Source of the DNA: Candidatus Krumholzibacteriota bacterium
Lineage (GTDB): Bacteria; Krumholzibacteriota; Krumholzibacteriia; LZORAL124-64-63
DNA: 33,139 nucleotides
Direction: 5' to 3'
NCBI GenBank assembly: GCA_024275485.1
Contig: JAJRZA010000086.1
Span: 1-33,139, forward strand
Shown here: positions 10,379-33,139 of the stretch, piece after piece
Numbering within the stretch: the first letter of the stretch is position 1
Layout of the letters: each line of letters opens with the position of its first letter
Notes under the pieces: generated by a model
The model's input: the letters and a program-made list of their open reading frames with translations, nothing else
Told to the model about the DNA's origin: nothing
Database searches by the model: none
Made by a program: the position numbers and the translations under genes

Positions 10379-10587
10379 GGAAATCTTGTTACACAAGCAG
10401 TGACCCATGACCGATTACCAAAGAGAAATTTATCTTGCCAATTGGGACGATTCGATGAATCGTTTGCCCGGACGGTGTGTCGGATCCACACACACTTCTT
10501 GAGAGAGCCGTCGGTGGACACGTAGTCCCCCACTGGCGTTTGAAATTTTCCATCAGGGCCTTCGGGTTTTTCGGGAGAGATAGGAAC
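10379..10587 (+). ncRNA. Possible structured 5' leader or small RNA upstream of the zinc-ribbon gene
   Basis: This gene-free gap can form several hairpins in a row. ACGATTC-GAT-GAATCGT (10447-10463) is perfect. Next, GACGG pairs with CCGTC around an inner GTGTG/CACAC hairpin (about 10473-10514). A GGTGG/CCACT-type hairpin follows. Near the 3' end a weak GGCC-TTCG-GGTTTTT element precedes the ribosome binding site. The arrangement resembles an attenuator-type leader, but I do not recognise any known riboswitch or RNA family. Confidence 0.3.
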
Positions 10588-10860
10588 ATGTCCGACTACA
10601 TCGAATGCACTCAGTGCGGTGGTGATATCGAGGAGACAGGAATCCAGTATCGCGGAAAATTTTTTTGCAGCGACGATTGCTGCGAACAATACGAGCAGGA
10701 TTTTCTGGATAAGGATGAACCACTTATTGATGAACTGGCCGCCGACGACGCCGACGATGATGATGATCTCGGGGACATCGAAAATATCGGTTTTGAAGAT
10801 AATGATGATGAGGAAGACTTGTTGGACGATGACTACAATATCAAGCCGGAAGATTTTTAG
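10588..10860 (+). CDS. Small acidic zinc-ribbon protein
   Basis: The 90-residue product has an N-terminal zinc-ribbon-like module with Cys7-x2-Cys10 (CTQCGG) and Cys27-x3-Cys31-Cys32 (FFCSDDCC). The C-terminal half is extremely acidic, with runs of Asp and Glu (for example DDADDDDD). Such short zinc-finger proteins with an acidic tail may bind proteins or act as chaperone-like factors, but no family function can be assigned. The ATG at 10588 is preceded by GGGAGAGATAGGA. An upstream in-frame start at 10477 would lie inside the structured gap and is less likely. The gene ends just before a strong bidirectional terminator. Confidence 0.7.
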   Translation: MSDYIECTQCGGDIEETGIQYRGKFFCSDDCCEQYEQDFLDKDEPLIDELAADDADDDDDLGDIENIGFEDNDDEEDLLDDDYNIKPEDF

Positions 10861-10880
10861 TATTCAATTTCAGCCGAAAA

Positions 10881-10908
10881 AAAAGGAACCACGGTCGAGG
10901 TTCCTTTT
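10881..10908. terminator. Bidirectional Rho-independent terminator between convergent genes
   Basis: AAAAGGAACC (10881-10890) and GGTTCCTTTT (10899-10908) form a 10-bp stem with A-rich and T-rich outer ends and an 8-base loop. It lies between the zinc-ribbon gene (plus) and the HesB selenoprotein gene (minus) and can stop transcripts from both sides; on the minus strand the stem is followed by TTTTCGG. Confidence 0.88.
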
Positions 10909-10938
10909 CAATCGATTTCAATTCAAACCATTGGAAGA

Positions 10939-11286
10939 TCAACCACACCCACTGCACCCGCTGCTGCTTTCGCCGCAGTCGCTACTGATGCCCAGGCGGA
11001 GCATGTAACCCCGTCGATACGACTCGTTGACGTAATCGATGGTCAAGCCGCCGCTCTGGCGCAGGATGTCGGTGGTTTGGCTGTCCATCACAAATTTAAT
11101 GCCGCCTTCTTCCACAGTCAGATCGTCGTCTTTAGGCTCATCCAGAGCCATGCCAATACTGGGGCCGCCTCAGCCAAAGCCCTGGACAAAAAGGCGAACC
11201 CCTTTGCCGTTGTGTTCGGCCCAGTCAAAGTCCTTGAAGGCTTCGGTGGCGGTGTCAGTAATGCCGACCAGGTTCGTATCGCTCAC
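10939..11286 (-). CDS. HesB/IscA-type iron-sulfur protein, predicted selenoprotein (in-frame UGA = Sec39)
   Basis: Reading from a GTG at 11286 gives 115 residues if the TGA at 11170-11172 is read as selenocysteine: MSDTNLVGIT..., RLFVQGFG-U-GGPSIGMALDE..., ending GCSGCG. This is a full-length A-type (IscA/HesB) fold. The UGA falls exactly where the family has its first conserved, cluster-binding cysteine. The C-terminal cysteines (Cys104, Cys111, Cys114) match the second cluster-ligand region. Homology runs unbroken through the UGA, and the GTG has AAGGTGG six bases upstream, both arguing against a pseudogene. A hairpin meeting the bacterial SECIS pattern lies just after the UGA. HesB-like selenoproteins have been described in bacterial selenoproteome surveys. 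Automatic annotation would probably report only the 70-residue part from 11151. A-type proteins carry or donate Fe-S clusters in the cytoplasm. Confidence 0.85.
11135..11172 (-). other. Sec codon and bacterial SECIS-like hairpin
   Basis: The UGA is at 11172-11170. After 20 bases the transcript folds into GGCUC (11149-11145), loop UGGAU (11144-11140), GAGCC (11139-11135). The loop starts 25 bases after the UGA and has G in its second position. Bacterial SECIS elements are expected to have a small apical stem-loop about 16-37 bases after the UGA with a G in the first two loop positions, so this fits. Confidence 0.75.
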
Positions 11287-11424
11287 GATGATCCACCTTT
11301 TCTGCAGACAGTGATCGGTCGAGAAATCTTGGCGACCGGATCAACAGGAATCAAGGGGTTCCAAGCTTTTTCCCCATGTGCTATATCGTTCCAAAGGAAA
11401 CACACTTTAGGAAATTCGCAACTT

Positions 11425-11543: not shown

Positions 11544-13280
11544 GTGAAGTCATTCTTGCGGTCGTTTTTGGCGTCTTTTCTGGCGTTGATGGTTTTGGTT
11601 CTGGTGGCGGTCGGCCTGCTGGCCATGAAATTTGGCGGTGATACCGAAATCAAGGATCACAGCTGGTTGCATCTGGATCTCTATGGGGATGTTCTTGAGT
11701 ACGATCCTCCCGGCGGGGTGATGGCCCAGGCAACCGGTAGCGGTGGCAGCCTGACCCTGCAGAAGATTCTGGAGAATCTGGACAAGGCGGCGGTGGACGA
11801 ACGCATCGACGGTGTCCTGTTGCAAATGAGCTCTAGCCACAATGCCGGGTGGGGCAAGATGGAGGAAATCCGCGGCGCGGTGGCACGGGTCCAGAAAGCG
11901 GGCAAACCCGTGATTGGATTTGCCGATGCCATTGATGCGCGGACCTATTACCTGGCCGCGGTTTGCGACTCCCTGTATTGCCCGCCTGCTGGGTACATAA
12001 TGTTTACCGGTTTTTCCAGAACTTCCAAACACATCAAGGGCACACTTGAAAAACTTGGGATTGCCCCGCAGGTGTCGGCCATTCGTCATTACAAGGCCGC
12101 AGCTCAACTGGTCACCCGGGTAGACCTGTCCCCCGAGGCCAAAAAGAACATGAACTGGATGATGGATGAATTCTGGGACATGTTCTGCGACGCACTGCAA
12201 AAGGATCGGGGATTCAGCGAGGAGCGGGTGAACGAATTGATGGAGCATGCCCTGTTCACGCCGAAAGAAGCGGTGGCCGCAGGAATGTTCGACGGGTTGA
12301 AATACTGGGATGAGATCAAGGATCAATTCAAGCCAGAAGGAGAAGATCAGCTGGCGGTGGTCAGCCACGAACGATACGCGGACGAGGATCCTGAAGACCT
12401 GGATCTGAAAGGCGACAAGACCATCGCCATCGTGCACGCCCAGGGAAACATTGGTGGTCGGGAAAACGGGGTCAACCCCCTTCTGGGCTTGATGATGGGG
12501 CACGAAAGCATCGTGCGTGAATTGAACCGGGCGGCCAATGATGATGATGTGGCGGCCATCGTCCTGCGTGTGGACAGCGGCGGCGGCGAGAGTCTGGGCA
12601 GCGACCTGATGGGCCATGCGGTACACATGGTCAGCCAGAAGAAACCGGTCATCGTTTCCATGGTGGATGTGGCTGCCAGCGGCGGTTACATGATGGCCTA
12701 TCGGGCGCCCCTGATCATGGCCAACCCTATGACCGTCACCGGCTCCATCGGCTCCATCAGTGCCAAGTTCGATATGTCGGGCTGGTATGAAAAAATCGGG
12801 GTCACAACCGACCATGTGAGCAAGGGACCCAATGCGTTGATGTGGTCCGACGACCAACCGTTTACCGAAGAAGAGTTCGAGCGTTTCAATGAAAACCACT
12901 GGACCGATTTCCGGAACTGGATGAACGATGTGGCCGCTTTTCGGGACATCGCCACCACGGACATCGACAGTCTTTGCATGGGACGTGTTTGGACGGGTCG
13001 GCAGGCCATGGGCAATAAATTGGTGGATGAGCTTGGTGGGCAATATGAAGCGGTTTTGTTGGCCAAGAAAGAAGCCGGAATTGCGGTGAACGAATCGGTG
13101 ACCTTGTGGCACTTGCCGGAATCAAAAGACCTGATTGAAAGTGTATTGGGTGGTGAAGAAGGCGTGGATCAGGCGCTGAGTTGGACGGTGTATCGCTCGG
13201 TTCGCAACGAGGTCCGTTTCACTGCGGACTATCTGGGTGACGGGAAGCTTTGGGTGGTGGATCCGATTTTCCGGCCGTGA
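11544..13280 (+). CDS. sppA: Signal peptide peptidase SppA, long (67K-type) form
   Basis: The 578-residue membrane-anchored serine protease has an N-terminal transmembrane segment (about residues 8-28) and two repeated SppA/ClpP-like (peptidase S49) domains, as in the E. coli enzyme of about 618 residues. The catalytic pair is visible: the general-base Lys184 in AIRHYKAAAQ of the first domain and the nucleophile Ser379 in DVAASGGYMMAY of the second. The enzyme degrades cleaved signal peptides in the cytoplasmic membrane. The start is a GTG at 11544, fixed by TGGAGG seven bases upstream and the hydrophobic N-terminus. It is divergent from the HesB gene and convergent with the PATAN-HDOD gene. 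Confidence 0.95.
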   Translation: MKSFLRSFLASFLALMVLVLVAVGLLAMKFGGDTEIKDHSWLHLDLYGDVLEYDPPGGVMAQATGSGGSLTLQKILENLDKAAVDERIDGVLLQMSSSHNAGWGKMEEIRGAVARVQKAGKPVIGFADAIDARTYYLAAVCDSLYCPPAGYIMFTGFSRTSKHIKGTLEKLGIAPQVSAIRHYKAAAQLVTRVDLSPEAKKNMNWMMDEFWDMFCDALQKDRGFSEERVNELMEHALFTPKEAVAAGMFDGLKYWDEIKDQFKPEGEDQLAVVSHERYADEDPEDLDLKGDKTIAIVHAQGNIGGRENGVNPLLGLMMGHESIVRELNRAANDDDVAAIVLRVDSGGGESLGSDLMGHAVHMVSQKKPVIVSMVDVAASGGYMMAYRAPLIMANPMTVTGSIGSISAKFDMSGWYEKIGVTTDHVSKGPNALMWSDDQPFTEEEFERFNENHWTDFRNWMNDVAAFRDIATTDIDSLCMGRVWTGRQAMGNKLVDELGGQYEAVLLAKKEAGIAVNESVTLWHLPESKDLIESVLGGEEGVDQALSWTVYRSVRNEVRFTADYLGDGKLWVVDPIFRP

Positions 13281-15681: not shown

Positions 15682-16197
15682 TCAGTTGAAGTTCACTGAA
15701 ATCCGGTAGCCGATGGTCTGGTTGTCACCCAGGATTGCGGTGGCTGCATCGACTGTGAGATCGGCGCCAATGTTCAAGGTGGAACTGGAATTTACCAGAA
15801 CCACTCCCACAAAAGTATTCGCACCCGCTTCATCTGCGGCACCGTCGATGTTGATCTGAAAATTGTCCAGGATCAACCCCGCCACCGGAGCATTTTCGAT
15901 CAAGGTGATGTCGTAGCCGCTGCCGGAGATGGCGTCAATGGTGAAGACCCCCTGGCTGACGTTGGTGGCATTGAAGGATAGAAAATCAGGATCCGTCAAT
16001 CCGCCGGATGTGGCCACGGTCAGGGTGCCAGTGTTCAGGGCCACATCTCCGAAGTTCAAGGCGGTGATTTCGGTTACAGTGATTCCTTCCACAATATCCA
16101 AAAGGGCTGATGTATCCAGGTCAACTGCTCCCGCTGGAAATGCCAATAAACCCGTGAATAGCAATATCATCAGTGTGGTCCTGGTTCTGGCAAACAT
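15682..16197 (-). CDS. Secreted DUF4402-type fibre subunit (third copy)
   Basis: The 171-residue protein has a cleavable signal peptide ending about FPAGA (residue 24). A short N-terminal strand of alternating hydrophobic residues follows (LLDIVEGITVTEI), then ALNFGDVALNTGTLTV, and the C-terminal motif GADLTVDAATAILG with final residues VNFN. The same landmarks occur in the products at 22645-23172 and 23403-23909, so the three are paralogues. DUF4402 proteins are all-beta secreted proteins of unknown function. Beside a chaperone and usher they are best read as pilin-like subunits, with the N-terminal strand as a possible donor strand; this is inference. AAGGAG seven bases upstream supports the ATG at 16197. 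The gene lies 244 bases downstream of the TPR/CBM9 gene, and its leader can form a CCGCAT-N6-ATGCGG hairpin. Confidence 0.75.
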   Translation of the reverse strand: MFARTRTTLMILLFTGLLAFPAGAVDLDTSALLDIVEGITVTEITALNFGDVALNTGTLTVATSGGLTDPDFLSFNATNVSQGVFTIDAISGSGYDITLIENAPVAGLILDNFQINIDGAADEAGANTFVGVVLVNSSSTLNIGADLTVDAATAILGDNQTIGYRISVNFN

Positions 16198-18598: not shown

Positions 18599-21598
18599 TT
18601 ATGGAGCCGGATCATCCGGCCACAGAGAGTTACGGTACAATACTTCGAAGATGAGAGACAGAGTTAATTCCTTGTCGAACTCGGGATAGCCCTCGTCCAA
18701 ATGCAACCGAGCCGTCTGGGTCACCACGGGTGTTTCGGGCTCGGGTTCGGCGATGGTCTTGTCTCCAATGACAACTCCAGGGGTGGCCGGCTCAGCCGTT
18801 TCAAGCACTGCAATTTCGACTTTGTCTTCATCTTGCTCAACCACTTCAGGAACGATTGAGGCGATGACCGGCATTTCCGATTCAACGACATCCTTCCTCT
18901 GCAGAATAATATCCGGTCCAACGACAAAACCACCTTCGGCGGGAATCAGGAAAGGCACCGGCTCGGGGATTTCAAACCTGGTGGTGTTGACGGTGGCAGG
19001 AATGACGCCCAATCTGTATTCGCCCGGGAAAATTTCCGAGAAATAATAGTAGCCATCGAATTCCCCAACGCTGCTTTTTACGCGGTTTCCTTCACTGTCC
19101 AGGATTTCCAGTCCCACGTGGCGCACCGGTGCGTCCATCTCACCCGAGTCCAGGACCAGGCCCTCCATCTCTCCCACATAAGAGAAGGGGAAGTCCACAT
19201 CCACAAAGCTGCCCGGATGCCCCACAACGTTGACTCCCTCGGATATGGGAATCATGTAGGGGTCCGCCACGGTGGAAAGATCCAGTTTGATGGTCTGGGT
19301 TCGGTGCACCTGCAAGCCGGTCAAGAGAGCGACTCCATCGTCATTGGTTCGGATTTTCCGCCAGGCGGTGAGGCTCAGGAATCCCACACCGGGCAGGGGT
19401 TTGTCACCTTCGTCGAAAACCCGGTTTGCATTCATGTCGATGTAAGTCCGTACCGAAGCTGCGGAGCGGTTGGCCAGGCGCCGATACTGAACAGCGTAGC
19501 AACTGGATCGATTGTCCCGGGTCAGTGAGGTGCCGAGGGTCAGTCCGATGGCTGCTCCGCCGGCCTTGAAATAGCTGTAGTTCGCACCCAGGGAAAAATT
19601 ATCAAAAAAGACAGTCAAGTCGAGGCTGATGTTGTCGTTGCCGAATTCAGGTTTGAGGAAATGGGATCCCCGGCCAACGAATTGAAGCCTGTCGGTTTGG
19701 AACCAGTTCACCGAGGCCCCGGCAGAACGCACCCGTCCAGGGCTAATTTCGTAGTTCAAGTCACCACGCAGGGAGATGGGGCCCAGTTGGGTCCGGATCA
19801 ATTGAGTCCCCAACAATTCCTGGTCGCTCAGGATGTCGAACTCTCTCTCACGGTATCGCAGGCTATGAGAAAGCAGGAACCGGTTCACGTTGGCTGATAG
19901 GTGGAATTTCAACTCATTATCATGTTTCAGGCGGCTGTCTTCGAAGTGACGGTTGGTGGCTGACAGATTATAGAAGAGCGTTCCATTGGGAAGGCTCATC
20001 AGATTTCCACTGCTGCGCAAAAGGGTTTGGCGAGTCAGGTAGCTGAAACCATAGTAGGCTTCGGCCCTGTAATTGAAACTGGCCTTGTGTGAAGCGAACA
20101 GGTTCTGGTCCTGGAACCTGGCCCTGGCAGCCAAGGAATAGGCAGCTCCACCGCGCATACTCTTGGCCAAAATGGATTCCAGGTACACCCGGCCCAGGGA
20201 GTTGTGGCTGGTCAAACTGCTGAAGAGTTCTTGCCTACCTTCTACCTTCAATCGTGAAACGTTGGCTACCAGGGCATGCTTCGATGTCACGGCGTAACTC
20301 AATTCCAACTGCTGATTCCAGGCCTTGGCCAATACATAGTCCCGTGATGGCGGAGTTGTCAGCAGCCCCTTGCCTTCCTGCACAACGATGGCTTTGTATT
20401 TTAATTTTCCCACATCCGCCATTTCGGTGCTGATGTTGGAATTCTTGACAATTTCCCTGGTTTCACCCCGGGGTCCGTACAAGACCGTTCGGAAAATATT
20501 GTTGCCAAAAACCAGAGGCACATCCACAAAGAAGTATTGCCCCGACTCTCCGATGGTCTGGAAATCGTAGAGAGAACCGTTGATATACAATTCCGCTTCC
20601 CAGCCGGGAGGGGCATCGCCCTGAATTTCGGTGGTGTCGATTTCACGGGTGTGGCTGAGGTTCTGATTAGAAACCATCATCCCCAACCCCTGCTTGCTGG
20701 TGGAGATCAACGGGACCCGGGAAATGTAGAGATCACCGATTTCGTATTGGGTGGACGAAGCAGGTCCCAGCAGGCCGCCTTCCGGATTCCATCGTCCAGC
20801 CTTCAGCCGGGCAATGGTCTGACTATGGTCCTTGTTGCCCAGATGCGAGACGAAAAGACTGGTCGATAGTCCCGCCAGATCAGCATGGCTCTGCAGGGCC
20901 AATCGACGAGTGGGACTCTGCCGGCCGGCGAAGAAACTTGCCGTAGCATCCACCAGCGGATAACTCCACAGGCGGTAGGGGGCCAACTGCAAGGGATATT
21001 TTGCGGTGTCTTTGCCATGGCGTGACAGCCAGTAGCTGCGTTGCTCATCACGTTTGAGTCGGCTCTGGAAGGGAAGAATTTCGCGCGGCGTGATTTTGAC
21101 GTGCATACGCGAAAGGTTGATTTCCAGATCCACCGGCAGCCATTGTTCCATAATGGTAGATTGGATGTAGATATCGTTATTATCATAACCAATGAGGATC
21201 GGACCCAGAGGAGTGAGGTTGCCATTCCGGGAAATGGTTTGGGCCGGAAGATTCAGACTGAAGGGTCGGTCTTCGGTCACAATCCAACCTTGGGCGGTGC
21301 CGTTGACGGAATCGACCATGATGCCCAATTCCAGGATGGAACAGAGTTCACCCAAGGGCATCAGGACAACATCCTGGTGCTGGTAGGCGATCAATCCGTG
21401 CCCGGTACTCTTGGAGCCGATTCTCACTTCCAGAACCAGAAGATTTTCCTCATCAATTGGCAGGTATTGGGAGTCTGTCGGCTTGCTGCTGGGGAGTTCT
21501 GCCTGCTGGGCAAAAGACACCGACACCGGAACCATCAGGGTTCCGGTCAAAAGCAGGACGAACATCGCCCGGCTGATGAATGCCAGCCGGTGGATCAT
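18599..21598 (-). CDS. Usher-like outer-membrane protein of a non-classical chaperone-usher system
   Basis: The 999-residue protein has a signal peptide (about 1-30). An N-terminal domain follows (about 50-190: LLVLEVRIGSKSTGHGLIAY, then VVLMPLGELCSILELGI). The plug/middle region (about 325-390) carries the usher-like signatures PPGWEAELYINGSLYDFQ and GQYFFVDVPLVFGNNIF followed by LYGPRGE. A large beta-strand-rich barrel region extends to about residue 720. Beyond that are a Ca-binding-type loop DMNANRVFDEGDKPLPGVGF, two carboxypeptidase-regulatory-like/SdrB-like beta domains (about 740-880), and a Pro/Glu/Val-rich tail. Classical ushers are 800-880 residues and lack such a tail. Ushers form the outer-membrane pore through which chaperone-bound subunits are polymerised. 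The start codon overlaps the chaperone stop as ATGA, so translation is coupled. Confidence 0.8.
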   Translation of the reverse strand: MIHRLAFISRAMFVLLLTGTLMVPVSVSFAQQAELPSSKPTDSQYLPIDEENLLVLEVRIGSKSTGHGLIAYQHQDVVLMPLGELCSILELGIMVDSVNGTAQGWIVTEDRPFSLNLPAQTISRNGNLTPLGPILIGYDNNDIYIQSTIMEQWLPVDLEINLSRMHVKITPREILPFQSRLKRDEQRSYWLSRHGKDTAKYPLQLAPYRLWSYPLVDATASFFAGRQSPTRRLALQSHADLAGLSTSLFVSHLGNKDHSQTIARLKAGRWNPEGGLLGPASSTQYEIGDLYISRVPLISTSKQGLGMMVSNQNLSHTREIDTTEIQGDAPPGWEAELYINGSLYDFQTIGESGQYFFVDVPLVFGNNIFRTVLYGPRGETREIVKNSNISTEMADVGKLKYKAIVVQEGKGLLTTPPSRDYVLAKAWNQQLELSYAVTSKHALVANVSRLKVEGRQELFSSLTSHNSLGRVYLESILAKSMRGGAAYSLAARARFQDQNLFASHKASFNYRAEAYYGFSYLTRQTLLRSSGNLMSLPNGTLFYNLSATNRHFEDSRLKHDNELKFHLSANVNRFLLSHSLRYREREFDILSDQELLGTQLIRTQLGPISLRGDLNYEISPGRVRSAGASVNWFQTDRLQFVGRGSHFLKPEFGNDNISLDLTVFFDNFSLGANYSYFKAGGAAIGLTLGTSLTRDNRSSCYAVQYRRLANRSAASVRTYIDMNANRVFDEGDKPLPGVGFLSLTAWRKIRTNDDGVALLTGLQVHRTQTIKLDLSTVADPYMIPISEGVNVVGHPGSFVDVDFPFSYVGEMEGLVLDSGEMDAPVRHVGLEILDSEGNRVKSSVGEFDGYYYFSEIFPGEYRLGVIPATVNTTRFEIPEPVPFLIPAEGGFVVGPDIILQRKDVVESEMPVIASIVPEVVEQDEDKVEIAVLETAEPATPGVVIGDKTIAEPEPETPVVTQTARLHLDEGYPEFDKELTLSLIFEVLYRNSLWPDDPAP

Positions 21599-22488
21599 TG
21601 CAGTTGTTCTTGACCTTTACCCAATGGAATAGTCAATTCTGCAGCTTGATCGCCGTGCATATCTTCGGTTTCAGTGTATCGCACGATCAATTTCCCAGAG
21701 CTCAACATTTGCGCGTTGGCCTTTTTGAGGGTGATGATCCGTGTGCGCTTGGGAGTGGGAAAATACACAGCCAGTCCCCGGCCAAGGTGGAGGTGGGTCT
21801 CTTTGCCGTCGAGCCCCACATGCAAGACCTCAAGCTCGCCGTAAACTGACCGTTCGCCCCTACGGACGAGATCCACAGACAAAACCGGGTAGCTCGATTG
21901 GGGATGCTTAAGCTGGAGGCTGGGATTTGTAATTTTGATGGTGGCCTGGGGATTTCCCAAGCGCATCAAAATGGGAATCACCGTTTCAATGGTGGCAACG
22001 GCAGTGACCGAAAGTTTTCCTTCGGCAATCAGGGCCTCCTCATTTTCCAGATCCTTGAGACGGGGCGTCACCGGAATTGAACGAATTGCCAAATGAGTAC
22101 GGAATTCGATGTTTTCAGGAAAACCCCCCCGCGGACGTCGCGCCAAAAGACGGATCGTTTGGGATGTATACGGCGCGATGGTGACACGGCGTGGAGAAAA
22201 CCGAATAAGGTCGTCGGCAAAGTATTCGTCTTCATCTGCCTTATCCGCCACAACGATGGCCCCGGTTTCCAACATTCTCCTGTTGACCAGGGAGATCCGG
22301 TAGGTGGCCGTTTCCGAGGTGCGGTTGGTCAGGAAAACCGTGGCGGACCGGGTTCTTCCATCGAAAAGAACCCGCAATGGTGCTATGGAGACACCTTGAG
22401 CCAAGCTGCTCTGGACCAAGGGTCCGGCAAAAACCAAAGCAAGTACGGACACAATACACGCGGTGCAGAACCTTCTCAGGTGCATCAA
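21595..22488 (-). CDS. PapD-like periplasmic pilus chaperone
   Basis: The 297-residue product has a signal peptide (about 1-30, ending SSLAQG) and an immunoglobulin-like N-domain. Hallmarks of PapD-type chaperones are VSIAPLRVLFDGRTRSATVF at the start, LIRFSPRRVTIAPYTSQTIR (the conserved Pro-rich strand) and EFRTHLAIRSIP, the segment before the second domain. The C-domain is more divergent. At nearly 300 residues it is longer than typical FimC/PapD proteins (about 230-250). Such chaperones cap fibre subunits by donor-strand complementation in the periplasm and deliver them to the usher. GGGAGG lies seven bases upstream of the ATG at 22488. The usher gene overlaps the stop, and the subunit gene at 22645-23172 lies upstream on the same strand. 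Confidence 0.85.
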   Translation of the reverse strand: MMHLRRFCTACIVSVLALVFAGPLVQSSLAQGVSIAPLRVLFDGRTRSATVFLTNRTSETATYRISLVNRRMLETGAIVVADKADEDEYFADDLIRFSPRRVTIAPYTSQTIRLLARRPRGGFPENIEFRTHLAIRSIPVTPRLKDLENEEALIAEGKLSVTAVATIETVIPILMRLGNPQATIKITNPSLQLKHPQSSYPVLSVDLVRRGERSVYGELEVLHVGLDGKETHLHLGRGLAVYFPTPKRTRIITLKKANAQMLSSGKLIVRYTETEDMHGDQAAELTIPLGKGQEQLQ

Positions 22489-22644: not shown

Positions 22645-23172
22645 TTAATTGTATGTGGAGGTGATGGTGAAGGAAACGCTCTGGCCACTGCCAACGGTGG
22701 CGGTGGCGGAATCGAGAGTGAGGGTTGCGCCAACGGTTAAAACCAAATTTCCACTGCCGTCTAGGGTGACTCCTATCAGCGGCAGATTGCCTTCACTTGA
22801 AATAAATGAAGCCAGGGTGAAACCATTGCTGGAACTGGTGCTTACGCTGATATCAACCAGGGTGCTTGGATCACCGGTTAGAGAGTAGATTCCCGAATAT
22901 GGCGACCCACCATAATGTATCAGACTCGGGTCAGAAGTAATGGAATCAGCCAGGCCGAGGGTGACGGTACCATCCTTGTCGGCGAGTTGACCGAAATCCA
23001 TCTGTTGATCAGTACTGATGCTCACCGCCACTGCCGGCTGGACCTCAGGTTCTCTATCTGGATTTGGCGCCGCCTTCCCAGTCGGAACCGGGAACACCAC
23101 CCCAGCCAAAAGCACAATGAGGCTGAACCAAACTGGCCCTCCCCAAGGATAAAATTTTACCAACAAGCCCAT
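22645..23172 (-). CDS. Secreted DUF4402-type fibre subunit (second copy)
   Basis: The 175-residue protein begins with an N-terminal signal segment (WFSLIVLLAGVVFPVPTGKA). After a Pro-rich spacer comes the strand AVAVSISTDQQMDFGQLADK. The C-terminal motif is GATLTLDSATATVG and the last residues are ITSTYN. It shares the FG motif, the LT-x-D-x-ATA motif and the final Asn with the two other copies, but is clearly diverged, with a longer spacer and a Ser/Gly-rich core. It is the first gene after the terminator at 23332-23370, about 156 bases upstream of the chaperone, and is probably a minor subunit or adaptor. The ATG at 23172 is chosen over a TTG at 23196 because GGGGAG lies nine bases upstream. 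Confidence 0.72.
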   Translation of the reverse strand: MGLLVKFYPWGGPVWFSLIVLLAGVVFPVPTGKAAPNPDREPEVQPAVAVSISTDQQMDFGQLADKDGTVTLGLADSITSDPSLIHYGGSPYSGIYSLTGDPSTLVDISVSTSSSNGFTLASFISSEGNLPLIGVTLDGSGNLVLTVGATLTLDSATATVGSGQSVSFTITSTYN

Positions 23173-23331
23173 GAGAACTTTCTCCCCACCCTTCAAAGCA
23201 AAATTCTTTTGCTATTGAGGGCCAGGCAGCAAAGTCGGCAACTGTTGTCATTGTTACATGTTACAGTGCATGGCCGACATCCCTGTCATTTTTGGTGATT
23301 TCTCAGGGGTAAGATTAGCAAATGATATGCC

Positions 23332-23402: not shown

Positions 23403-23909
23403 CTAGTTCAGCACGACATTCAGATTGTATCCCACGGTTGCGACACCAACCACGGCGGTAGCAGCGTCAACAGTCAGGGTGCAGCCAATATTCCAGGTGT
23501 CGGTACCGGCAACCTGAGTAATGGCGGTGATGTCCAGTTCGTCGGTGGTTCCACCATCGAGGGAAACGACGAAAGTAGCCAGAGCCAGGCCGTCAGCGGC
23601 ATCAGTGTCGGAAAAAGTGGCATTCAGGGTAGCGCCAATGATACTGGTGACCGAGAAAACTGCGGGACTGTAGCCGGTAGGATCATAAGAGATACTTGAG
23701 GCATCGACCATGGCAGTGGTAGGATCGCTGGCCAGCACCAAGGCACCATTGAAATCGGCAACTTGGCCAAAATCCATGCCCGTTGTCTGGGTTACATTGA
23801 TACCCTCAACAACTTCAACAGCGGCGGTTGTAGGAAGGTCAAAAGCAAATGCACTTGTGGCTGTCAGTGCGACAACGGCCAAGACTGTGAGTGTTTTAAG
23901 GTTCTTCAT
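23403..23909 (-). CDS. Secreted DUF4402-type fibre subunit (first copy, probable major subunit)
   Basis: The 168-residue product has a clear Sec signal peptide ending ATSAFAF, then the hydrophobic-alternating strand AAVEVVEGINVTQTTGMDFG. The beta-rich body ends in CTLTVDAATAVVG and NLNVVLN. The landmarks match the other two copies; the segment VVEGINVTQT is especially close to the third copy (IVEGITVTEI). AAAAGGAG six bases upstream is the best ribosome binding site of the locus. With its own strong terminator and a possible promoter at 23947-23973, this looks like the most highly expressed subunit, as for a major fibre protein. Only one Cys is present, so an intramolecular disulfide like that of FimA is absent. 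Confidence 0.78.
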   Translation of the reverse strand: MKNLKTLTVLAVVALTATSAFAFDLPTTAAVEVVEGINVTQTTGMDFGQVADFNGALVLASDPTTAMVDASSISYDPTGYSPAVFSVTSIIGATLNATFSDTDAADGLALATFVVSLDGGTTDELDITAITQVAGTDTWNIGCTLTVDAATAVVGVATVGYNLNVVLN

Positions 23910-30705: not shown

Positions 30706-31118
30706 CAGGGGCCACTGAAGTGGTGGAAGCCTTCCAGTTCGAAACATTTCGGGCACATCTTTCTTTGGTGGGTGCAATGGCGGCGGAAAACGAAGGTGAC
30801 CTCGATACTGCCGTTTCCCTGTTCAGGACAGCTCTTGAGACAACCTTGGAGATGCAGCCTCTTTTCCAGATCAGATTGGCCCGCGCCTTGCGAAAAAACG
30901 GCCAACCGGAAGACGCCAAAGAAGTGCTGGAATCAGCACTGAAAATGGATCCGGCTCACCCTGAAATACATCTGGAAATGGCCTGGGCTCTGAAGGATCT
31001 GGGAAAAATCGGGCAAGCCCGTGATCACTTGAAAATTGCACAGGATGCCTGGGGTGACGCCCACCCGGATTTCCTACCTGCATTGATGGCTCAAGCTCTC
31101 GCGTCGGAGGTCAACTAA
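30675..31118 (+). pseudogene. C-terminal TPR part of the preceding gene in the -1 frame
   Basis: The reading ARVALAGATEVVEAFQFETF continues the TPR pattern of the preceding gene without a gap, and further repeats follow (ENEGDLDTAVSLFRTALETT, GQPEDAKEVLESALKMDPAH, GQARDHLKIAQDAWG). A GTG at 30696 could start a separate 140-residue protein overlapping the upstream gene, but there is no good ribosome binding site and it would begin inside a TPR helix. A single-base deletion around 30681-30695, real or a sequencing error, explains the two frames best. The junction (CACAAAAGAAG) is not a canonical X-XXY-YYZ slippery site. Confidence 0.65.
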
Positions 31119-31795
31119 CGATCGTAGACCATTCTGATCTTCACCACTTCATCCTTGTTCGGGATCTGGATTTCTTCACTGACCGTCAGCCGTTTTTTTT
31201 CTTCATCCAGGCTGTAGTACCGGACCCGGGCCAAAGTCTCTTGACGTGTTTTCCATCTTATGACCAGCGTTGAACCTTCCCAGATGGCCGTGGCGGCAGC
31301 TTCACCGCGTTGGGTCCAGATGGTGTTGGTTCGGCCATCGGTGTACAGCAAACGGGTGATGTCCAATCCATTGGTGACGTTGAGCTCATCGCCGTCCTGG
31401 AAAATTTCCAGACGGGAGTATTGCTGTTTCATTTCTTCGGCGCGCTTTTGGGCCTGTGGGTTGTTGGCCGAGCTATCACCACCACCACCGCTCATACCGC
31501 CGCCTCGACCACCGCCACCCATACCGCCACCTCGACCTCCGCCACCCATACCGCCACCTCGACCGCCACCACCCATACCGCCACCACCGCCTCCGTGCCC
31601 GCCGCCGCCACCTTTGCCGCCACCACGGCCACCGCCCATGGCTTTCATCATGACTTGTTGAAGATCGTCACTAAGTTTTTCATTGATGGTCCAATAACCG
31701 GTGAGATTGGGTGAACTGTCGGGGCTCTCCTCGGCTTGCACACCTGAGATAGGGATAAGCAGGGAAATCATGGTGGCAAGAATCAATCGTTTCAT
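31115..31795 (-). CDS. Secreted glycine-rich protein of unknown function
   Basis: The 226-residue product has a signal peptide (MKRLILATMISLLIPISGVQ, cleavage after AEE or nearby). A short segment NLTGYWTINEKLSDDLQQVM follows, then a low-complexity Gly-rich stretch (about 54-106) holding three exact-length copies of the nonapeptide MGGGGRGGG. The C-terminal beta-rich domain (about 125-226) carries RLEIFQDGDELNVTNGLD and AAATAIWEGSTLVIRW and ends RMVYDR. Proteins with this lipocalin-like C-terminal domain and a Gly-rich linker occur in several environmental bacteria without known function. The ATG at 31795 is the start that gives a signal peptide. It ends at 31115, four bases into the end of the convergent TPR reading. 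Confidence 0.72.
   Translation of the reverse strand: MKRLILATMISLLIPISGVQAEESPDSSPNLTGYWTINEKLSDDLQQVMMKAMGGGRGGGKGGGGGHGGGGGGMGGGGRGGGMGGGGRGGGMGGGGRGGGMSGGGGDSSANNPQAQKRAEEMKQQYSRLEIFQDGDELNVTNGLDITRLLYTDGRTNTIWTQRGEAAATAIWEGSTLVIRWKTRQETLARVRYYSLDEEKKRLTVSEEIQIPNKDEVVKIRMVYDR
31496..31576 (-). repeat. Three 27-bp tandem repeats coding for MGGGGRGGG
   Basis: Three units at 31496-31522, 31523-31549 and 31550-31576 have identical length and differ by a few synonymous bases. They encode the nonapeptide repeats of the Gly-rich protein. This is a coding minisatellite and likely varies in copy number among strains. Confidence 0.9.
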
Positions 31796-31826
31796 GCAGT
31801 TTCTCGCTCTTTTGGGGATTAATGGA

Positions 31827-31873
31827 AGAGCCAACCGACCCCAAGACACTGAAGGGGTGAGCCGGTTGGCTCT
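31827..31873 (-). terminator. Strong stem-loop after the RND pump gene
   Basis: AGAGCCAACCG (31827-31837) pairs with CGGTTGGCTCT (31863-31873), with an additional inner CCCC/GGGG pairing (31839-31842 with 31853-31856). It lies between the pump stop (31966) and the start of the Gly-rich gene (31795). The minus-strand tail is not a clean T run (TTCCATTAAT), so termination may be partial or the hairpin may stabilise the transcript end. Confidence 0.55.
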
Positions 31874-31965
31874 GTAATCACAAACACCAAACGCCAGGGT
31901 TCCGGAAAACAAGCGAAAAAAAACATGGGGTTTTTGGGGCCCCGGTCGCCTTGCAGAAAAAGGGA

Positions 31966-33139
31966 TCAAACAGGGGCCGGGTCGGTTGGGCGCCCACCCT
32001 CAAGTTGATCCTCTTCAGCATCATCGTCAGGGTCGGCCACCCCAAATTTGTTTTTGAAATCCTCCACAAGAGAATAGCTAACCGGCACCAGCAACAAGGT
32101 GATAAAGGTGGCAAACATGACCCCGAAGCCCAGGCTGGTGGCCATGGGAATGAGGAACTTGGCCTGCAGGCTTTTTTCCAGGATCAGGGGCATCAGTCCG
32201 GCAAAGGTGGTCACCGAAGTCAGCATGATGGGCCGAAAGCGTCGCATGCCGGAGCTCATCAGCGATTCGGTGATCGACATACCCCCGCGCCGACTGCGGT
32301 TGATGAAGTCGATCATAATGAGTGAATCGTTCACCACCACGCCGGTTAGGGCAACAACCCCGAACATGCTGATCAATGTCAGGTTCAGTCCCATCAGGAT
32401 GTGGCCCCAAATGGCACCCACAATGCCGAAAGGAATGGCCGACATGACGATGATCGGCTGCATGTAGGATTTGAACATCACAGCGAGCAGGACGAAGACC
32501 AGGAACATGGCCATGAGGAAGCCTCTCATCAGGCTGCCAATGGACTCGGCCTGCTCTTTCTGCTGGCCTTCCATGCTGAAGTGCAGGCCGGGATAGTCGG
32601 CCAGCAAACGGGGTAGGATATTCTGACGCAGGTCCCGGTTGATCTCATCGGCGTTGGCAACCGACTGATCCACATCCGCGGTAACACCGACCACACGTTT
32701 GCGGTCGGATCGCTCGATGGAGGCGAACCCACGGCCGATATCCACCCTGGCAACGCGGTTGAACGGTACTTGATCCCCATTGGGGGTGCGGATGCGCATG
32801 GATTCGATGTTTCCTATGCTCTTTCGTTCATCATCCGGATAGCGGATCATGACCTTCACTTCATCGCGGCCACGTTGGATGCGCATGGCCTCGTATCCAT
32901 AGAATCCAGCGCGCACCTGACGGGCCAGATCCGACAAGGTGATGCCCAGGGTGCGGGCCTCGGGCTTGAGGCTGAGCTTCATCTCAACCTTGCCTTCCCG
33001 GAAGGTATCGGTGATGTCCTGGACTCCGGGGTAGGTGGCCAGTTCCGCCTTGAGTTGACGCCCGGCAGCCAGCAGGCCCTCGGTGTTCGGTGAGGACAAC
33101 TGCACGTAGACGGGTTTGCCGCCGTGGAACAGGTCGGCG
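31966..33139 (-). CDS. RND-family efflux pump permease, C-terminal part
   Basis: The window holds the last 390 residues or so; the gene begins beyond the right edge. It matches the second half of AcrB/HAE1-type permeases. A porter domain comes first (about 1-190 of the visible part, with YPGVQDITDTFREGKVEMKL and NGDQVPFNRVARVDIGRGF). The membrane helices follow, with SMFGVVALTGVVVNDSLIMI and SGMRRFRPIMLTSVTTFAGL. The pump is proton-driven and exports substrates through a tripartite complex with a periplasmic adaptor and an outer-membrane channel; substrates cannot be inferred. The C-terminal tail is acidic (DPDDDAEEDQLEGG). The gene is followed by the stem-loop at 31827-31873. Confidence 0.92.
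   Translation of the reverse strand, partial: ADLFHGGKPVYVQLSSPNTEGLLAAGRQLKAELATYPGVQDITDTFREGKVEMKLSLKPEARTLGITLSDLARQVRAGFYGYEAMRIQRGRDEVKVMIRYPDDERKSIGNIESMRIRTPNGDQVPFNRVARVDIGRGFASIERSDRKRVVGVTADVDQSVANADEINRDLRQNILPRLLADYPGLHFSMEGQQKEQAESIGSLMRGFLMAMFLVFVLLAVMFKSYMQPIIVMSAIPFGIVGAIWGHILMGLNLTLISMFGVVALTGVVVNDSLIMIDFINRSRRGGMSITESLMSSGMRRFRPIMLTSVTTFAGLMPLILEKSLQAKFLIPMATSLGFGVMFATFITLLLVPVSYSLVEDFKNKFGVADPDDDAEEDQLEGGRPTDPAPV

Follow-up and report, generated by a model that had tools for sequence, protein, structure and literature searches.

The question raised by this locus is whether the TGA codon that interrupts a HesB/IscA-like gene in a Candidatus Krumholzibacteriota bacterium is read as selenocysteine (Sec), and what kind of protein would result. 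The gene lies in a stretch of 33,139 nucleotides, which is referred to here as the window. An earlier note on this DNA had located the gene at 10939-11286, with a good ribosome binding site before a GTG start and an in-frame TGA at 11170-11172. These coordinates held, but the strand had been left unsaid and the gene was found to be on the minus strand; the plus-strand reading of the same interval is an unrelated frame and was rejected. The features of the locus are as follows.

11293-11297, minus strand: ribosome-binding site GGTGG, recognised from sequence, 6 nt upstream of the GTG start codon (11286-11284).
10939-11286, minus strand: predicted HesB/IscA-like selenoprotein gene, translated with TGA as U; GTG start, 115 codons including Sec39; NF038090 match with E 8e-17; predicted fold like IscA/SufA.
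11170-11172, minus strand: in-frame TGA at codon 39, the putative Sec39; lies within the UxGP motif (GFG-U-GGPS) and corresponds in the alignment to the first cluster Cys of IscA.
11135-11149, minus strand: putative bacterial SECIS hairpin GGCUC-UGGAU-GAGCC, 5 bp, beginning 20 nt past the TGA and carrying a G in its apical loop; supported by fold and codon conservation.
10945-10977, minus strand: coding region of the C-terminal Cys tail, C104-x6-C111-x2-C114, defined from 35 aligned proteins and of low confidence in the structural model.
10941-10939, minus strand: terminal TGA (UGA116), the end of the HesB/IscA-like gene.
10880-10909, minus strand: probable terminator, an 11-bp hairpin followed by a U tail; folding energy -14.5 kcal/mol, z -3.62.

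The minus-strand reading from 11286 to 10939 with TGA as Sec gave VSDTNLVGITDTATEAFKDFDWAEHNGKGVRLFVQGFG-U-GGPSIGMALDEPKDDDLTVEEGG...SSDCGESSSGCSGCG-stop, a product of 115 residues in which the stretch spanning Sec is GFG-U-GGPSIGMALDEPK. The ribosome-binding site before the GTG and the TGA, at codon 39, agree with the earlier note, and the AAAAGGTGGATCATC-GTG stretch at the start is common to the window gene and three other loci (L022-L024). The sigma-70 promoter scan near the gene found none, and the Rfam scan of the whole window returned no match. The terminator hairpin (10909-10880), for which none of 200 shuffles was equally stable, sits between the Sec gene and the convergent gene at 10477-10860 and is probably shared by both. 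The upstream neighbour, on the plus strand at 11544-13280, is divergent and encodes an SppA-type S49 peptidase.

The conservation of the in-frame TGA was monitored in 80 genomes of the phylum, 38 of which belong to the family of the window bacterium. An orthologue with a single internal TGA was present in 36 of these 38. Over all the loci fetched from several phyla, 96 of 99 distinct motif-matching genes have TGA and the other three have a Cys codon in the same column. A local base error is ruled out, since TGA recurs at this codon in dozens of independent assemblies. In addition, the frame past the TGA showed 14-20 synonymous against 6-9 non-synonymous codon changes (61 codons, three near relatives), and the pattern of these changes indicates that the frame after the TGA is under protein-level selection.

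The Sec-decoding machinery, the absence of which had been named as grounds for refutation, was found to be complete in this genome: selA (449.5 bits), selB (330.6 bits), selD (366.5 bits) and a tRNA-Sec with the anticodon UCA (69.5 bits). Together with the TGA shared by dozens of assemblies, it supports the earlier reading of UGA as selenocysteine. The selD gene (contig C1, 20138-21055, minus strand) also codes for a selenoprotein: an in-frame TGA falls in its active-site motif, which reads SAG-U-AAK, and its minimum-energy fold gave no clear hairpin downstream of that TGA. The co-occurrence of selB was tried as a further test of the Sec reading and rejected; 33 of the 36 genomes that carry the TGA gene have selB over the cut-off, but it does not discriminate because selB is also found in families without the HesB-like Sec gene (73 of 80 phylum genomes in all).

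The hairpin after the TGA had been described as SECIS-like in its spacing and loop G; it was found to begin 20 nt after the TGA, and its invariance at synonymous sites exceeds chance, as does the presence of the TGA itself in 96 of the 99 genes. The folding energy of the region is unremarkable (z +0.28 on 52 nt; z -1.60 on 30 nt, with 17 of 200 shuffles as good), and as the z-score on 52 nt was not significant, energy was dropped as evidence and conservation was used instead. The hairpin GGCUC-UGGAY-GAGC(C) is near-invariant at the nucleotide level across homologues, and its 16-mer occurs once in the genome. In 36 genes of Krumholzibacteriota and kin, the hairpin codons are Ala GCT, Leu CTG and Glu GAG in 36/36 each, whereas GCT makes up 8% of Ala codons in the remainder of the same genes; in 60 other genes, mostly from Desulfobacterota, they are GCT in 59/60, CTG in 60/60 and GAG in 60/60, the genome-contig loci having been found with degenerate back-translated peptides that partly selected for the MALDEP residues and not for synonymous choices. 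The single GCC among the 96 Sec genes, in a Deltaproteobacteria bin (bin85, L073:3010-3321), introduces one stem mismatch. No compensatory changes were seen in the stem, because it hardly varies. The constraint on individual bases, rather than energy, is what makes it convincing that the predicted hairpin acts as SECIS.

Among the comparative data, those that tie the hairpin to Sec most directly come from two genomes in which it disappeared where Sec did. In both, a tandem Cys paralogue lies about 0.2 kb upstream of the Sec gene (L122:938-1270 in genome G038 and L123:2072-2413 in G039). In these copies TGC replaces TGA and the SECIS region reads ATGGCGCTCGACGA, with the codons GCG-CTC-GAC; the hairpin bases are thereby lost through synonymous changes. 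The tandem Cys copies nest in the tree among the Sec genes of their genus (support 91/85), and this nesting inside the Sec clade indicates a duplication followed by a change from Sec to Cys.

With this evidence, the window gene is almost certainly a genuine selenoprotein gene with UGA39 read as Sec, as far as sequence can tell. A sequencing error or a decaying pseudogene with an unread TGA, for which the in-frame stop alone speaks, has a negligible probability, as a TGA shared by 36 of 38 family genomes and by 96 of the 99 distinct genes fits neither, and both the selection downstream and the near-invariant SECIS bases argue against decay. The reassignment of UGA to a sense codon throughout the genome would explain its readthrough in the HesB-like gene as well as in selD; it is just as improbable, since TGA is the ordinary stop of 7 of the 25 window genes, and moreover no TGA occurs within the selA and selB frames and a full Sec system is present. 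The terminal UGA116 (GCSGCG-UGA) could be taken for a second Sec closing a C-terminal Cys-Gly-Sec tail, and TGA is indeed the commonest final stop in the 35 readable genes of Krumholzibacteriota and kin (TGA 24, TAG 9, TAA 2). The 11 orthologues with TAA or TAG mark UGA116 as an ordinary stop, the sequence beyond it is not conserved and the terminator is the only structure found after it in the window, all of which makes a second Sec very improbable.

The protein was then compared with known families and structures. Among the family models, NF038090 IscA_HesB_Se fits best (E 8e-17, 61.4 bits, 106 residues), followed by TIGR00049 and by TIGR01911 HesB_rel_seleno (40.2 bits). NF038090 matches all 35 aligned homologues at E <= 0.001, yet the window protein stays under the curated cut-offs of both HesB-selenoprotein models (85 bits for NF038090 and 66.35 bits for TIGR01911), slightly below that of Pfam PF01521 (24.9 against 26.3 bits) and below that of every IscA/ErpA/SufA model. 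An A-type (HesB/IscA) fold is nevertheless predicted: the AlphaFold model (mean pLDDT 80.6; residues 102-115 of the tail not confident, with pLDDT about 40) matches E. coli IscA (1r94, E 3.2e-7, and 1s98) and SufA (2d2a), and a profile built from the 35 homologues matched Aquifex AQ_1857 and E. coli IscA in the PDB with Sec39 aligned to the first cluster Cys.

The note had called this an otherwise perfect A-type scaffold with the TGA at the first conserved cluster-binding Cys. The fold and the first-ligand position stood, but the canonical C-terminal Cys-Gly-Cys did not; it is replaced by C104-x6-C111-x2-C114, and the resulting pattern U39-x64-C104-x6-C111-x2-C114 differs from the A-type pattern C-x(about 63)-C-G-C. 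Sec39 (or Cys), G38, G41, P42, MALDE and C104 are invariant in the 35 aligned proteins, in which C111 and C114 reach 90% conservation or more. Across homologues the spacing of the tail varies while the three Cys are mostly kept; one Sec homologue (L042:3001-3294) has a tail shortened to a single Cys (PSAC-stop). The scores below both curated cut-offs and the variant Cys tail place the protein, by sequence comparison, in a divergent sister branch of the HesB-like selenoproteins and not within the curated models.

The gene, the conservation of its TGA, the SECIS constraint, the decoding machinery and the fold rest on sequence evidence, and from these we infer Sec insertion itself, cluster binding and a physiological role. 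SelB with Sec-tRNA(UCA), steered by the hairpin shortly 3' of the codon, would decode UGA39 as selenocysteine, and UGA116, which lacks such a hairpin, would terminate translation. The product would be a 115-residue A-type (HesB/IscA-fold) protein with Sec39 at the place of the first cluster-binding Cys and the remaining ligands provided by C104, C111 and C114 of the flexible Cys tail. Judged by homology, its most likely function would be that of an accessory carrier of Fe-S or Fe, or of a related metal-binding protein, beside a conventional all-Cys A-type protein. Such a protein, with all-Cys ligands and ending NTCGCGESFSV, is encoded elsewhere in the genome (contig C7, 1917-2222), and its presence suggests that the Sec protein is probably accessory and not the housekeeping carrier.

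A function as Fe-S/Fe carrier is somewhat favoured on the sequence evidence. Alternatively, the selenoprotein might handle selenol/thiol redox chemistry or soft metals and metalloids, with Sec39 and the Cys tail forming a selenenylsulfide or binding a soft metal. The ligands that depart from the canonical C...CGC, with a tail of varying spacing and three mostly retained Cys, would suit such a role, as would the separate all-Cys protein ending CGCG, and a 2026 review considers Sec likely to bind metal in several selenoproteins that are uncharacterised (PMC13188914). Also in favour of this role, an RND-type permease and a Gly-rich protein are encoded upstream of the Sec gene in many Krumholzibacteriota loci, and up to 18 of the compared loci have the RND-type efflux gene there. 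This linkage is broken in the window, where the RND permease (31966-33138, minus strand) is about 20 kb from the Sec gene; the protein agrees with Fe-S A-type proteins in its fold and in the conserved place of the first ligand, and it has no oxidoreductase CxxU/UxxC motif. The redox or soft-metal role is possible but rather doubtful. No isc, suf or nif genes were recognised among the neighbours of the window gene or the conserved neighbours in the loci compared, and operon context was therefore dropped as a clue to function. This isolation of the gene counts against the favoured explanation, as do the scores under both curated cut-offs, the low model confidence of the tail, on which cluster binding would depend, and a Methanococcus maripaludis mutant of the HesB-like selenoprotein that fixed nitrogen without a defect.

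Two further regions of the window were noted, both on the minus strand. The region 31115-33138 holds the end of the RND permease and a glycine-rich protein, whose homologues are directly upstream of the Sec gene elsewhere. The frames at 15682-16197, 18599-22488, 22645-23196 and 23403-23909, judged from their translations alone, look like a chaperone-usher type surface-fibre locus with several small secreted proteins, a large outer-membrane protein and a periplasmic chaperone-like protein.

The window protein is of a known kind, the HesB-like "UxGP" selenoprotein family (TIGR01911/NF038090), which is functionally unexplained; the literature agrees with the earlier statement that these proteins are known and poorly characterised (PMC1794560, PMC13188914, PMC11097638). 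Eleven such genes, with Sec-to-Cys conversions, were catalogued in 2006 (PMC1794560), and the 2026 review lists the HesB-like selenoprotein as TIGR01911 with the motif UxGP and an uncharacterised function (PMC13188914). Mutagenesis and 75Se labelling demonstrated the protein in Methanococcus maripaludis, and a mutant had no nitrogen-fixation defect (PMC11097638, where the latter is cited as unpublished). The window protein shares with TIGR01911 the A-type domain, Sec at the first Cys, the U-G-G-P motif and the unexplained role, but not the score. Its SECIS would be part of the coding sequence, in contrast to the SECIS elements of archaea, which are located in the 3' UTR (PMC1088965). NF038090 is its closest model, yet the identity to the Desulfobacterota forms is about 30-40%, and the N-terminus and Cys tail of the window protein are longer. 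The predicted fold and first-ligand position are as in the IscA/SufA/ErpA carriers, from which it differs in having Sec for Cys, a C-x6-C-x2-C tail for Cys-Gly-Cys and a gene outside any isc/suf operon. No report on Krumholzibacteriota selenoproteins was found in a literature search covering sources other than subscription journals.

What is new here is the Krumholzibacteriota branch, the invariance of the SECIS across phyla and the tandem Sec/Cys pair, of which the base-for-base conservation between phyla and the tandem pair are the less expected. The pair in the two genomes is possibly a selenium-dependent isoform pair, and selenium-responsive isoform switches are known for methanogen enzymes. 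A bolder reading, which we regard as unlikely, would have the Krumholzibacteriota protein as a Sec-dependent carrier with unusual ligands (a selenolate and a variable three-Cys tail), with a demand for Sec so strong that every base of the SECIS has been kept fixed between phyla, and the tandem pair of one genus as a selenium-responsive isoform switch.

HesB-like selenoproteins appear in catalogues from the 2000s onwards with no function assigned to them, and a Krumholzibacteriota branch, with the Sec form in 36 of 38 family genomes, now joins them. In practice, ordinary gene calling would end this gene at codon 38, the truncation that the earlier note had expected, and the curated family cut-offs overlook the branch. 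The SECIS bases, near-invariant with Sec and lost in the tandem Cys paralogues, provide a clean natural test of the element, and the genomes with adjacent Sec and Cys copies would allow the question "why selenium here?" to be put to the test.
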